DNA of 64,000 nucleotides from Winogradskyella litoriviva (lineage in GTDB: Bacteria; Bacteroidota; Bacteroidia; Flavobacteriales; Flavobacteriaceae), in assembly GCF_013249065.1 (NCBI RefSeq), contig NZ_JABRWQ010000003.1, positions 124,001-188,000 of the forward strand. Direction: 5' to 3'. Both the position numbers and the translations under genes were made by a program. Positions 6,558 through 61,945 of the stretch are shown here, one piece after another. Under the pieces are notes generated by a model that was given only the letters and a program-made list of their open reading frames with translations, was not told where the DNA came from and did not search any database. Position 1 is the stretch's first letter. Each line of letters opens with the position of its first letter.

Positions 6558-6602
6558 GAAAGATAAATATATTAATAACGCTAACTATCCTGCTCTGTCT
6601 TG
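6558..6602 (-). promoter_or_regulatory. Locus operator O1 with -7 box, upstream of the GH39-like gene
   Basis: On the coding strand, CAAGACA-GAG-CAGGATA occupies 6602-6586. Exactly 20 nt follow and then TATCTTTC (6565-6558), close to the Bacteroidota -7 element TAnnTTTG. The ATG is about 40 nt further on. No -33 TTTG is seen where expected; the repeat covers that position, as for an activator-dependent promoter. One of nine matching sites in this window. Confidence 0.75.
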
Positions 6603-6640
6603 AAAAACGATTCATTATCATTTTTGAAGATATATAGGAG

Positions 6641-8170
6641 TTACCTATCAGCTCCAATGACATCCACGGGTTTATTTTCTTTTCCATTTACACGCATCTT
6701 TTGCTCCACAAAATAAGGTTGAAAGGTATAATTAGATTCCGAATCCCATTTTGAATTCACATTTGGCAACAGCGCTTTTAACGCTTCTATCTCACTCTTG
6801 TATTTAGGATTATTAGCTTCATTATACCACTCATTGGAGTCTAAGCTATGATTATAAAACTCTTCAGTTCCGTCTTCATATTGAATATAACGATAACCAT
6901 TTGTCTTAATAGCATGATTATTCATACCATAAGTTGTGATAGCTCTTGCTTCATTTAGTCCTTCATTATTTTCCATCATGGCCACTAAGCTATTCCCTTC
7001 ATTTCTTTTGTAAGCTGGCAAGCCACTCAATTCTAACAAAGTTGGATAAATAGACAACATCTCTACAGGTGCCGTGATTTTCTTTCCTTTAGGCAAATTT
7101 GGAGCAGCAAATAGCAATGGCGCTTTTGTTGCAGTTTCCCAAAGTGCGTGTTTTGCAAATGTTCCTTTTTCCCCTAAACGATATCCATGATCCGACCACA
7201 AAACAATAATGGTATTATCAGCATACTTACTGCTTTCTAAAGCATCCAAAACACGACCTAATTCATAATCTACATAACTCATACAAGCTAAATAGGCTTG
7301 CACTATCTTTTTCCATTCGCCACTGTCCTTTGCCCATTCTGTAGATGGCATCATTGGTAAATCATTTATTTGCATACCTACAGGAGGAATATCATTTAAA
7401 TCATCTGACTTGTAAGGTGGAGTTTGAATATCTTCCAACGGATACAAATCGAACCATTTTTGAGGAACATAAAGTGGTACATGAACTCTTAAAAACCCAA
7501 GTCCCATAAAAAATGGCTCATCATAATTTCTTTGCAGTCTTTCAGCAACCCAATTTACAGACTGATGGTCTGGCATTAAAGAATCTTGTTCAGGGAAAGC
7601 TCCCCAATCTGTACTTGTTCTTCCATACTTTTCTTTTTTAGATTTTGATGTTCCAAAACCATCCCAAACAAATCGTTTTTTAGGATAAGGACCAAAACCT
7701 TTTACACGTCCACCAGATTCATTAAATACACTATCTGGCGCATGGATATGAAATAGTTTTCCAATGCCCATTGTGTAGTAGCCATTGTCCTCAAAGTATT
7801 CTGGTAAAAACCTGATGTCTTTTGTAGCAGGATTCCCTTCTCTCCGAATTTTATTATCAGGTGTCATTCCGTAAATTCCGGTTGTAGAAGGACGTAAACC
7901 TGTCATTATAGAAGCTCTTGAAGGCCCACATAAAGGCGCCTGAACGTGAGCGTTTGTAAATGTAACTCCCATTTTTGAGAGTCTATCAAAATTTGGTGTC
8001 TTTACGTTTGAAAAATTTTGAATTGGACTAATCCAATTGTTTAAATCATCAACAGCAATAAACAAGACGTTTGGTTTTGTTGTGATGTCTTTTACCACTT
8101 GCTGTTCTTGATTCTTACATGAAAGAATAAACAGTAATGGCACTAAAAGTATTAAGAGCGTTATTCTCAT
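6641..8170 (-). CDS. S1 family sulfatase (iduronate-2-sulfatase-like), lipoprotein
   Basis: A 509-residue sulfatase with the lipoprotein signal LLVPLLFILSC. The metal site is AVDDLNNW and the maturation motif is CGPSR at Cys81 (then ASIMTGLRPST). The second metal site WSDHGYRLGEKGTFAKH is the form seen in iduronate-2-sulfatase-like enzymes, probably S1_7. The C-terminal extension FVEQKMRVNGKENKP is somewhat longer than in its neighbours. It is the last gene of the long unit that begins at 23378 and sits 9 bp after another sulfatase. The next promoter (O1) follows within 60 bp, and no clear terminator hairpin is visible between them. Desulfation of uronate or rhamnose residues is inferred. Confidence 0.93.
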   Translation of the reverse strand: MRITLLILLVPLLFILSCKNQEQQVVKDITTKPNVLFIAVDDLNNWISPIQNFSNVKTPNFDRLSKMGVTFTNAHVQAPLCGPSRASIMTGLRPSTTGIYGMTPDNKIRREGNPATKDIRFLPEYFEDNGYYTMGIGKLFHIHAPDSVFNESGGRVKGFGPYPKKRFVWDGFGTSKSKKEKYGRTSTDWGAFPEQDSLMPDHQSVNWVAERLQRNYDEPFFMGLGFLRVHVPLYVPQKWFDLYPLEDIQTPPYKSDDLNDIPPVGMQINDLPMMPSTEWAKDSGEWKKIVQAYLACMSYVDYELGRVLDALESSKYADNTIIVLWSDHGYRLGEKGTFAKHALWETATKAPLLFAAPNLPKGKKITAPVEMLSIYPTLLELSGLPAYKRNEGNSLVAMMENNEGLNEARAITTYGMNNHAIKTNGYRYIQYEDGTEEFYNHSLDSNEWYNEANNPKYKSEIEALKALLPNVNSKWDSESNYTFQPYFVEQKMRVNGKENKPVDVIGADR

Positions 8171-8179
8171 AATGATTTA

Positions 8180-59859: not shown

Positions 59860-59883
59860 GAATTACTAAAATAGGATTTATAA

Positions 59884-61881
59884 TTAGTTTATTATCAGTT
59901 TAGTCTGAATAGTTTTGTTATCATCTGTGGTTGCTCTAACTAAATACAAGCCAGATGTTAAATTTCTATTATTTCTAATTTCAATTTTTCCATTAGTTGT
60001 AGCGCCATTATATACAACTTTTCCTAGCATATTGTAAATTGTAATATATGCATCAATACTATTGTTTACGGTAATGATAAAATTACTATTTGCTGGGTTA
60101 GGATAAACTTTTATTGAAGCTACTGTCAATTCATTATCTTCAATACTTAAAGATTGGCTTGTTGGTATGGCCTCCCATACACTTCTCATATCTGTATCAG
60201 CAACTGGAATATGCGTTACCTGCCCATTTATTTCATGATACATAAATCTACCACTGGTACCAGATTCAAATCTATACGTTTCATCAGTTTCGTTATAATG
60301 TAACGTCCAAACTTTATCGCTAGAACTTGTTGTTGTACCTGTACTTAAAACTACATAAGGACCTCCAGGGCCTCCAGAACCTGGTGCACGCAATATTCCA
60401 TTAACTTCACTATCTATATTAACTAATGCGCCTTGTTGCACAAAAGTCCAATGCGTGTTTTGCGGTTCACCTGAATCTGTCATGGTAACTGGCATAGCTG
60501 ATGCCTCTGCATCCGTTAAAAATTGTCCTGTGGCTACATTTCTAAATCTAAAAACATCATCACTAGGGGCTGGACCTGAGTTATCTACAACTTCAACTTT
60601 CTCATATGTTGTATTTGCCCATCTAAATTGGGCTCTACCTCCTCTAACGCGGTATGCACCATATCTAATACCAGATTCTGTGCCTCTTTCTGGTTCTGGG
60701 ATATTCCAATTAAATGTTTCACCGCCAATTACTGCATCACAATAATGAATTTTTTGGGTGGCATCATTTGGATCTACCCTAAAACCTACCTCTAGTTCAA
60801 AGTCAATTTCTTCATTTTTATTTACTTGTTTTAGAAAAACAACTTCCCGACCGCTACCTTCTCCTCCGCGATATAAAATACGTTCGGCATAAATATCAAA
60901 CGCCACTTGCTTGTCTGCATTGATACCTGTACCATAAACGGGCTTAGCCAAGTACAAACAAATAGCTGGATCGTTAGAACCTCCACCACCCGTGTGTTTT
61001 CCTTTTGCCTGTATTAAATAGCTACCATCCTGACTGAAAGAACCTCCATCTCCTACTTCAAGAATTCTTACAACTCCAGTGAATCTTGCGTAACTCCCAA
61101 CACCAGTTTCTCCAGATCTGGGTAAAGAACGCTCTATTCTAGGCTGTAGGGTACTTCCATCCCAGTGGTTAGACCCATCAGTAATGTTATAAACACCCCA
61201 AGTCTTACCATAAACATTACTCTCTGAGTAATCAGAGTAACAACTTCTATCATCAGCAGTACCTACATTAACAGGGTTTGGTAGATCTACATTTCTAGTA
61301 TTGTCATTTTGAAATTCACCTGAAGCAGGACAAGATAAATCTGGATTTGTGTCTTCATCTGGAGCTATCTCTACAGGAATTTCCACAAAAGGAATGAGTT
61401 CCCAATTACTTCTATCATCCGTATCTGCAACGACAACATGAGTTACTGTTCCATTTGCGTCATGATACAAATATCTACCACTATTGCCCGATTGAAATCT
61501 ATAGGTATTATCCGTTTGGTTGTGTTGTATCGTCCAAACTTTATCAGCATCTGTTGCTGGAGAAGCTACAGTTGTGCTAACAACTACATAAGGGCCACCT
61601 GGACCTCCAGAACCTGGTGCTCGTAATATTCCTAATACCTCACTATCAATATTATAAAATGCTCCGCTTTGTACAAAAGTAAAATGTGTACTCACAGGTT
61701 CACCTGTATCTGTCATAGTAACAGCTGTTGCACTTGAACCTGTATCGGTTAAGAATAGCCCAGTTTCGACATTTTTTAATCTAAAAATATCATCAGAAGG
61801 TGGCGCGTCTTGCGCTGCTATGCCAAGTGAGCATAATGTAAAACAACAAAATAATAAGGTTTTAAAAGTAATTTTTTTCAT
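59884..61881 (-). CDS. Secreted PL28-type ulvan lyase flanked by two beta-trefoil domains, with T9SS sorting domain
   Basis: A 665-residue protein with a signal ending GIAAQ. The core, residues of about 183-435, starts SCPASGEF and contains YGKTWGVYNITDGSNHWDGS, AKGKHTGGGGSNDPAICLYL and RYGAYRVRGGRAQFRW, consistent with the beta-jelly-roll ulvan lyases of PL28, which cut between sulfated rhamnose and uronate by elimination. Two ricin-like beta-trefoils, residues of about 29-165 and 440-575, bracket it and are near copies of each other (both with GILRAPGSGGPGGPYVV). The C-terminus (VYPNPANSNFII, NLTSGLYLVRA) is a T9SS type A domain. It has its own operator and terminator. It is the strongest single indicator of ulvan as substrate. 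Confidence 0.85.
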   Translation of the reverse strand: MKKITFKTLLFCCFTLCSLGIAAQDAPPSDDIFRLKNVETGLFLTDTGSSATAVTMTDTGEPVSTHFTFVQSGAFYNIDSEVLGILRAPGSGGPGGPYVVVSTTVASPATDADKVWTIQHNQTDNTYRFQSGNSGRYLYHDANGTVTHVVVADTDDRSNWELIPFVEIPVEIAPDEDTNPDLSCPASGEFQNDNTRNVDLPNPVNVGTADDRSCYSDYSESNVYGKTWGVYNITDGSNHWDGSTLQPRIERSLPRSGETGVGSYARFTGVVRILEVGDGGSFSQDGSYLIQAKGKHTGGGGSNDPAICLYLAKPVYGTGINADKQVAFDIYAERILYRGGEGSGREVVFLKQVNKNEEIDFELEVGFRVDPNDATQKIHYCDAVIGGETFNWNIPEPERGTESGIRYGAYRVRGGRAQFRWANTTYEKVEVVDNSGPAPSDDVFRFRNVATGQFLTDAEASAMPVTMTDSGEPQNTHWTFVQQGALVNIDSEVNGILRAPGSGGPGGPYVVLSTGTTTSSSDKVWTLHYNETDETYRFESGTSGRFMYHEINGQVTHIPVADTDMRSVWEAIPTSQSLSIEDNELTVASIKVYPNPANSNFIITVNNSIDAYITIYNMLGKVVYNGATTNGKIEIRNNRNLTSGLYLVRATTDDNKTIQTKLIIN
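60157..60564 (-). repeat. C-terminal beta-trefoil unit of the intragenic duplication in PL28
   Basis: Encodes residues of about 440-575 of the PL28 protein (DDVFRFRNVATGQFLTD to SVWEAIP). It matches the N-terminal unit at 61387-61797 with shared blocks such as VTMTD, the GSGGPGGPYVV run and the DTD-x-RS-x-WE end. Confidence 0.85.
61387..61797 (-). repeat. N-terminal beta-trefoil unit of the intragenic duplication in PL28
   Basis: Encodes residues of about 29-165 (DDIFRLKNVETGLFLTD to SNWELIP), the partner of the unit at 60157-60564. The catalytic PL28 core lies between them. Confidence 0.85.
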
Positions 61882-61900
61882 AGCTGCTTTAATTTTTGTT

Positions 61901-61945
61901 TAATGATACTTAATTTAGCTTAAAAAAGTATCCTGAACTATGCTG
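61901..61945 (-). promoter_or_regulatory. Locus operator O9 with -7 region, upstream of the PL28 lyase
   Basis: On the coding strand, CAGCATA-GTT-CAGGATA (61945-61929), 20 nt, then TATCATTA (61908-61901), the weakest -7 match of the set. The leader to the ATG is about 15-20 nt. Preceded by about 100 bp after the GH106 stop with no clear terminator. Confidence 0.68.

Follow-up and report, generated by a model that had tools for sequence, protein, structure and literature searches.

The window analysed here is a 64,000-nt stretch of the Winogradskyella litoriviva genome (contig NZ_JABRWQ010000003.1, called C33 below, positions 124,001 to 188,000; coordinates without a prefix are those of the window), in which copies of one putative promoter-operator element stand before genes for polysaccharide breakdown. 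All 32 of its open frames of at least 150 aa lie on the minus strand. According to Pfam, they include a PL28 ulvan lyase, ulvan-lyase beta-trefoil domains, GH78 and GH106 rhamnosidases, sulfatases and the rhamnose symporter RhaT, together with GH2, GH3, GH5-type, PL8-type, alginate-lyase-family and BNR_4 proteins. The left flank carries RhaEW (a rhamnulose-1-phosphate aldolase/dehydrogenase fusion), an FGGY kinase, an aldehyde dehydrogenase, lactate-utilization genes and a rhamnose isomerase match that falls below the NCBIfam cut-off. In the right flank there are PL28, GH106, GH88 and GH43 enzymes, SusC/D pairs, a TRAP transporter, a xylose isomerase with an FGGY kinase and a sugar transporter, and the uronate genes: glucuronate isomerase, mannonate dehydratase with an oxidoreductase, and 5-dehydro-4-deoxyglucuronate isomerase. 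The genes of the locus fit the sugars of ulvan, rhamnose, xylose, and glucuronic and iduronic acid (PMC11101340).

An earlier note on this DNA had proposed that nine intervals of the window share one operator-promoter, built on a direct repeat with a period of 10 bp. Both the copies and the repeat were confirmed: the minus strand of all nine intervals reads CAGGATA-N3-CAGGATA (17 bp), then 20 nt, then TAnnTTT, and each copy precedes a predicted transcription unit, operon boundaries being drawn from gene order alone. The spacing is 20 nt in eight copies, as claimed; the deviation of one nucleotide given for the copy at 32696 holds for the T-tract, which is 1 nt closer, and not for the TA, which is 2 nt closer. 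The proximal half-site, in which C, A, G, G and A are invariant in 9/9 copies, is better conserved than the distal one, and within the -7 box the A and the second T of the T-tract are likewise present in all nine. From the motif start to the predicted start codon there are 64-107 nt in eight cases and 267 nt in one (median 77), the distance at 23452 depending on the choice among start codons, of which an alternative lies 21 nt nearer.

With up to two mismatches the core occurs nine times in the window, against 0.34 expected and a maximum of three in 100 dinucleotide-preserving shuffles, which served as the null. Eight of the noted sites account for eight of these matches, and the last is a third half-site in an overlapping register (23446-23462). 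The remaining noted site (32724-32740), the weakest copy, has three mismatches, and at that level the core matches 13 times against 4.8 expected. A palindromic reading of the motif was ruled out, since over the 20 sites of the genome the half-sites match at 5.45 of 7 positions when read directly and at 1.95 of 7 when one is inverted. Three half-sites instead of two are present at 23436-23462 of the window and at C33:189671-189697; in the latter promoter the third half-site falls within the 20-nt spacer.

The motif had also been called searchable, with SusC/D, GH88 and rhamnose catabolism genes as expected further targets. The core without its -7 box was rejected as a genome-wide marker, because with up to three mismatches it yields 197 matches against 132 for the reversed control, too close to background; 12 of its 22 two-mismatch matches lie off the window's contig, and all eight with zero or one mismatch lie on it. 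The core plus the box was therefore used instead, and with up to three mismatches it gives 18 matches against one for the reversed control. All 18 fall within C33:109348-239567, 131 kb of a 3.89-Mb genome, so the motif is not scattered over the genome at a background rate. Eight of them are window sites, and the ten outside precede lactate-utilization genes, RhaEW, a PL28 gene, a CBM6 protein gene, GH43-GH3-GH88 genes, a sulfatase-rhamnosidase fusion, SusC/D, a GH2-xylose operon, a mannonate/uronate operon and a cytochrome c/TPR gene; sites for all three expected target classes were thus located outside the window (Table 1). Scanning with a matrix of the nine window sites brings in one more, before glucuronate isomerase (C33:229140, score 22.8), and detects nothing scoring 14 or more in C33:64001-109347. 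Together with this site and the off-spacing window site the genome total is 20, contigs other than C33 having been scanned by pattern and C33 stretches by matrix, and a core-only match at C33:237621 (total score 8.0) having been left out of the count. One strong site, G000:C33:239524-239567 (L044:11524-11567), stands before the multihaem cytochrome c554/TPR gene (L044:11808-14111), with about 240 nt from the -7 box to the start codon; there is no evident reason for this gene to belong to an ulvan regulon.

Our candidate for the protein that reads the motif is encoded at C33:120282-121325, divergently from the motif-bearing rhamnose operon. It has an N-terminal GntR winged helix (PF00392, residues 17-80, E 9.7e-10) and a C-terminal Peripla_BP_3 domain of the LacI/periplasmic-binding type (PF13377, E 1.4e-7). 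The best Foldseek matches of its structure model (pLDDT 86), a search used for domain identity alone, are SghR, LacI and RbsR (E 3e-13 to 4e-12), and its sequence relatives in the PDB include the AraR DNA-binding domain. By its predicted domains the protein is a member of the GntR family, its likeness to the AraR type being one of architecture alone. Two DNA-binding regulators were found among the scanned frames of the locus, this protein and an FCD-type GntR protein in the uronate cluster (L044:6750-7448); the phylogenetic profile described below was run for the former. Several PL28-positive genomes carry tandem copies of the regulator (61-80% identical to the query; Table 1), which suggests paralogue specialisation.

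The earlier note had assigned the motif to an AraC-type hybrid two-component system, whose output domain would bind the repeats through two adjacent helices. The geometry of direct repeats over the -33 position would suit such a protein, and AraC-type regulators control rhamnose utilization in Bacteroides (PMC3870299, PMC3878776). This assignment did not hold. The 11 HTH_18 matches of the genome are all on other contigs, none in a frame longer than 711 aa; the search thus revealed no AraC-type hybrid protein linked to the locus. In addition, the motifs predicted for AraC and hybrid systems have periods of about 21 bp (PMC3878776, PMC3870299), against 10 bp here. We therefore consider a regulator of this kind very improbable.

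The prediction that a single regulator would serve the whole locus is supported, by inference from three lines: phylogenetic profile, adjacency, and co-variation of half-site and recognition helix. These are also why we favour the GntR/LacI-type protein. The profile comprised 299 Flavobacteriaceae genomes of 236 genera, with motif copies counted at up to two mismatches and counts uncorrected for relatedness; close orthologues were those with a best E of at most 1e-119, the next genome being at 5e-81, a cut set after viewing the table. At least three motif copies are found in 42 of the 60 genomes with a close orthologue and in none of the 239 without, and at least one copy in 54/60 and 23/239, respectively; in total there are 321 sites in the 60 genomes and 25 in the 239 others. 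Rhamnose genes, rather than the regulator, are disfavoured as the correlate of the motif: among the 69 genomes with RhaEW above cut-off, at least three copies occur in 41 of 59 with an orthologue and in none of the ten without, which have 0-2 copies each.

Adjacency was examined in named orthologue loci, the best 80 of 570 from GTDB contigs, which come from Winogradskyella, Psychroserpens, Algibacter, Polaribacter, Tamlana, Hyunsoonleella, Flavobacterium and other genera. With the nine-site matrix at a score of at least 20, a site is present in 78 of the 80, and in 73 it lies within about 1.5 kb of the regulator gene; Markov-shuffled loci gave no site, against 127 in the 1.6 Mb of real sequence. 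The gene families present in at least 73 loci, when seeded from three loci, are the regulator (80), RhaI (74) and RhaEW (73). A correctly oriented site stands upstream of RhaEW in 37 of the 73 loci that have this gene (median 71 nt to the start), and the other 36 are mostly from Flavobacterium. In one locus (L192) a RhaT gene, 70% identical to that of the window, lies between the site and RhaEW; the RhaT family is present in 36 named loci, by family count and not locus by locus. Among 30 orthologue loci taken with 1.5-kb flanks, 25 have a site scoring at least 18.

The third line comes from the ten RhaEW genomes that lack a close orthologue. A relative of 37-46% identity was present in seven of the fetched stretches and in three there was none. 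Four divergent relatives (L235-L238, of genomes G108, G222, G247 and G037) have the recognition helix SRDT[IV]V[KR]AY, against SRDTVEKAY in the orthologues (EK at residues 58-59), and a P for R in the wing. CAGAAC or CAGAAT repeats, with the same period and the same 20-nt spacing, were found in the stretches of G108, G222 and G037. The relatives of G020 and G064 (L233, L234), which are equally divergent, keep EKAY and have CAGGA sites, and the three stretches without a relative have no strict site of either form. By strict regular expression, 48 of the 80 named loci yield complete CAGGA-type sites, 78 in all, and none of the 80 yields a complete site of the CAGAA type. Over the 299 genomes, CAGAA proximal sites occur in three of the four divergent genomes (G108, G222 twice, G247) against one of the other 295 (G144, once), and orthologue genomes add three matches, all of them CAGAA-CAGGA hybrids; as the CAGAA form was derived from G108 and one G222 site, the independent part of this result is the G247 site and the second G222 site. 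Half-site and recognition helix thus appear, from small numbers, to change together while the geometry stays fixed.

Linkage and co-occurrence do not equal binding, and a different regulator, whether a DeoR-type RhaR, an OmpR/PhoB-type protein or the FCD-type GntR protein, could read the repeats, with the GntR/LacI-type protein a mere neighbour. The geometry of the Pho box, read by OmpR/PhoB-type proteins, is similar to that of our motif. The motifs of DeoR-type RhaR are direct repeats with a period of 10-11 bp (PMC3870299). We hold this explanation to be improbable, because no DeoR or OmpR-type domain was found in the frames of the window and its flanks, the part of the genome that the Pfam search covered, because the motif is rare or missing in genomes that have rhamnose genes without the GntR/LacI-type regulator, and because the half-site shifts along with the recognition helix of that protein.

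What the protein does at these promoters may be read from their geometry. The -7 box is the ordinary Bacteroidota housekeeping TAnnTTTG: in 19 sites of the genome its T, A and T-tract columns are conserved in 16-19 of 19, and the last position is A or G in 17. As 18 of these sites were picked by a pattern containing TAnnTTT, the independent test is a search for the core that is blind to the box. Among the 125 unique sites that it returned outside the window, many of them from related species, TAnnTTT stands at a spacing of 20 in 64, at 19 and 21 in none and at 18 in nine, while no other spacing between 8 and 33 accounts for more than five. In Bacteroidota promoters a -33 TTG lies 17-23 nt upstream of the -7 box. 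No such TTG is present in any of the 19 promoters, a count only mildly under the approximately 2.3 expected from base composition by our estimate; being near chance, it is compatible with dependence on an activator and is no proof of it. Given the usual placing of the -7 box relative to the transcript start, the proximal half-site would cover about -38 to -32 and the distal one -48 to -42, which supports the claim that the site covers the -33 position. The exact spacing and the absence of a TTG lead us to predict an activator, and this arrangement of sequence elements suggests that the motif is an activator site replacing the missing -33 element.

Two other explanations bear on the same geometry. 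The fixed distance to the -7 box would also be expected if the repeats were the -35 element of an alternative (ECF-type) sigma factor. This we regard as extremely improbable, as the box is the ordinary TAnnTTTG, the sites are made of 10-bp repeats, two or three each, and the scanned frames of the locus showed no sigma-factor domain. Alternatively, the same GntR/LacI-type protein could be a repressor that covers the -33 region until a sugar releases it, in the manner of LacI and AraR. Repressors, too, are often encoded divergently beside the operon that they control. The proteins related to our candidate in fold and sequence bear the names of repressors (LacI, TreR, AraR), and PMC9296495 cites a GntR protein that represses alginate catabolism in Zobellia. 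Repression is nevertheless unlikely in our judgement, though it has to be taken seriously: a steric repressor would not need the 20-nt spacing to be kept exactly, as it is in tens of promoters across many genomes, and in 19/19 promoters there is no TTG -33 element beneath the site.

Taken together, we propose that a single promoter-operator cassette is repeated at all nine sites and is probably bound by the GntR/LacI-type sugar sensor as a predicted activator that replaces the -33 element; on sequence comparison we put the probability of this reading at roughly two in three. Several observations weigh against it, in addition to the near-chance count of TTG. In this genome the promoter of the regulator gene itself has no site pointing at that gene. 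The motif is non-palindromic, unlike the typical GntR operator with its GT...AC core, and GntR-family motifs are mostly palindromes (PMC4494728). Among the 30 loci with 1.5-kb flanks, five (L066, L069, L073, L075 and L076) have no site scoring 18 or more, four of them in genomes with a second regulator copy next door, and two of the 80 named loci have no site at all. Six orthologue genomes (G049, G121, G190, G215, G217 and G256) are without the motif at two mismatches; in the loci of four of them (L077, L086, L091 and L081) sites with more mismatches lie beside the regulator. Conversely, 23 genomes without a close orthologue carry one or two motif copies, and in G246, which also lacks a close orthologue, a site (G246:C2:223137-223180, L240) is directly upstream of PL28, a gene possibly acquired along with its promoter. 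The recognition-helix comparison is a post hoc one that involves few loci; the fetched G247 stretch has no site, the CAGAA-type site of that genome being 15 kb away, and the relative in G024 (L239, helix SRVTIEKGY) has no nearby site of either form.

With this in mind, one may envisage how the activator would work. Two CAGGATA half-sites one helical turn apart would bind the GntR/LacI-type sensor encoded beside the rhamnose operon, as a head-to-tail pair of proteins, or three at the three-unit sites, placed at about -48 to -32 and presumably touching RNA polymerase. The ligand would be rhamnose or a metabolite of the rhamnose pathway. Breakdown of ulvan would release rhamnose, upon which the sensor would turn on lyases, sulfatases, rhamnosidases and SusC/D, and would co-activate the rhamnose, xylose, uronate and lactate pathways. 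In genomes without an ulvan lyase, the same sensor would run a smaller rhamnose regulon.

Table 1. Promoter-operator sites in the window and selected sites and regulator loci elsewhere.
Feature	Coordinates	Strand	Site details	Genes behind the site
Operator-promoter A	61901..61945	-		PL28 ulvan lyase 59884-61881
Operator-promoter B	59771..59815	-	perfect motif	57827-59746, then GH78, isomerase-like, GH106 and sulfatase genes down to 48055
Operator-promoter C	47919..47963	-		RhaT rhamnose symporter 46836-47888 and GH78 43860-46712
Operator-promoter D	43360..43404	-	motif to start codon 267 nt	42169-43137, then GH5-type, GH3 and sulfatase genes down to 36944
Operator-promoter E	36743..36787	-		35802-36680 (T9SS-tailed protein)
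Operator-promoter F	35317..35361	-		32830-35283 (BNR_4 and ulvan-lyase beta-trefoil domain, T9SS tail)
Operator-promoter G	32696..32740	-	weakest distal half-site CGAGACA; T-tract 1 nt off	29841-32663 (GH78-type rhamnosidase), then genes down to 23559
Operator-promoter H	23408..23462	-	three half-sites: 23436-23452 plus register 23446-23462	GH2 gene 20340-about 23400, then genes down to 6641
Operator-promoter I	6558..6602	-	motif 6586-6602, -7 box about 6558-6565	3958-6516 and downstream genes (GH39-like, two sulfatases), running past the window's left end
SusC/D site	C33:221345-221388			SusC/D
Rhamnose catabolism site	C33:119912-119955			rhamnose catabolism genes
GH88 site	C33:203856-203899			GH88 as the third gene
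Tandem regulator locus	G163:C5:185815-188091			
Tandem regulator locus	G070:C8:12854-15055			
Tandem regulator locus	G044:C1:86501-88906			
Tandem regulator locus	G132:C7:348238-350472			
Tandem regulator locus	G153:C1:657365-659528			

Several other features of the window were observed. Between promoter D and its first gene lies a hairpin (43245-43285) with a 17-bp stem and about -19.6 kcal/mol, which could be an attenuator or a terminator-like element. The first gene behind site B encodes a protein of 639 aa with no Pfam match at E 0.001, and a 470-aa protein with weak arabinose/fucose-isomerase domains (53110-54522) is encoded between GH78 and GH106 genes. The GH106 gene at the right end of the window (62044-63999, continued in L041:1-1502) has no above-threshold site, and by eye there is a degenerate copy upstream of it.

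The number of sites differs between genomes that carry the regulator. Orthologue genomes with PL28 (n=16) have a median of 11.5 motif copies and those without (n=44) a median of three (p 1e-6, uncorrected for relatedness), so that promoter number could be a genomic marker of ulvan specialists. Flavobacterium loci usually have a single site within the stretch, of up to 21 kb. These numbers fit a rhamnose regulon that grew by the addition of promoter cassettes, a view drawn from them and not from a site-by-site comparison of loci. One may speculate further, with the balance of likelihood about even, that a GntR/LacI chimera of repressor ancestry became a direct-repeat activator substituting for the Bacteroidota -33 element, and that its cassette was copied, or captured, promoter by promoter, turning a rhamnose regulon of few sites, as in soil Flavobacterium, into a single-switch ulvan regulon of 130 kb that joins attack on the polymer to catabolism of all its sugars.

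If the proposed activator reading is right, one motif and one candidate gene define the regulon, including its operon boundaries and its catabolic genes. A further implication would be that a monosaccharide sensor can govern a large polysaccharide locus in place of a dedicated polymer-sensing hybrid system, and Bacteroidota would gain a rhamnose-type switch that is portable and follows a strict rule of geometry. In the open-licence PMC literature, as far as titles and abstract openings go, neither this motif nor this regulator is described as an ulvan switch, and there is no account of how ulvan degradation is induced in flavobacteria.

AraR of Bacillus subtilis, from the AraR subfamily of GntR proteins, shares the GntR winged helix with our candidate and resembles it also in carrying a LacI/periplasmic-binding-type sugar domain. 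AraR itself is a repressor with a palindromic operator, whereas the sites described here are 7-bp direct repeats 10 bp apart, in a position predicted to be that of an activator. Activators of the MocR type (GabR, TauR, PdxR) combine a GntR winged helix with direct-repeat sites and are often divergent from the targets that they activate (PMC5320631); they differ from our candidate in having an aminotransferase-like domain in place of the LacI-type domain, and here the targets are polysaccharide loci. NanR, NagQ and FarR are likewise GntR members that use direct repeats and no palindrome (PMC4494728). They belong to other subfamilies with other half-sites, and in the excerpts of that paper no common rule for the spacing to the -7 box was found. 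Given these precedents, neither the protein family nor the type of site is new; within the literature surveyed, the novelty lies in pairing them with a LacI-type domain, in how strictly the -33 geometry is kept and in how large the regulon is.

In function, the closest parallels are regulators of rhamnose and of polysaccharide loci. The DeoR-type RhaR also governs a rhamnose regulon through two direct repeats, with a period of 10-11 bp (PMC3870299) against 10 bp here, and it is of a different protein family from the GntR/LacI type; the text of that paper contains no occurrence of GntR or of Flavobacteri. The predicted AraC-type RhaR motif has a period of about 21 bp (PMC3870299). Control by hybrid systems and SusR-like proteins in Bacteroides is similar in that a regulator serves a polysaccharide locus via direct-repeat motifs, predicted to lie a mean of 21 bp apart for hybrid systems and 67/77 bp apart for SusR (PMC3878776). 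Compared with these Bacteroides systems, the predicted monosaccharide sensor of the W. litoriviva locus would run the genes for the polymer and those for its monomers alike.

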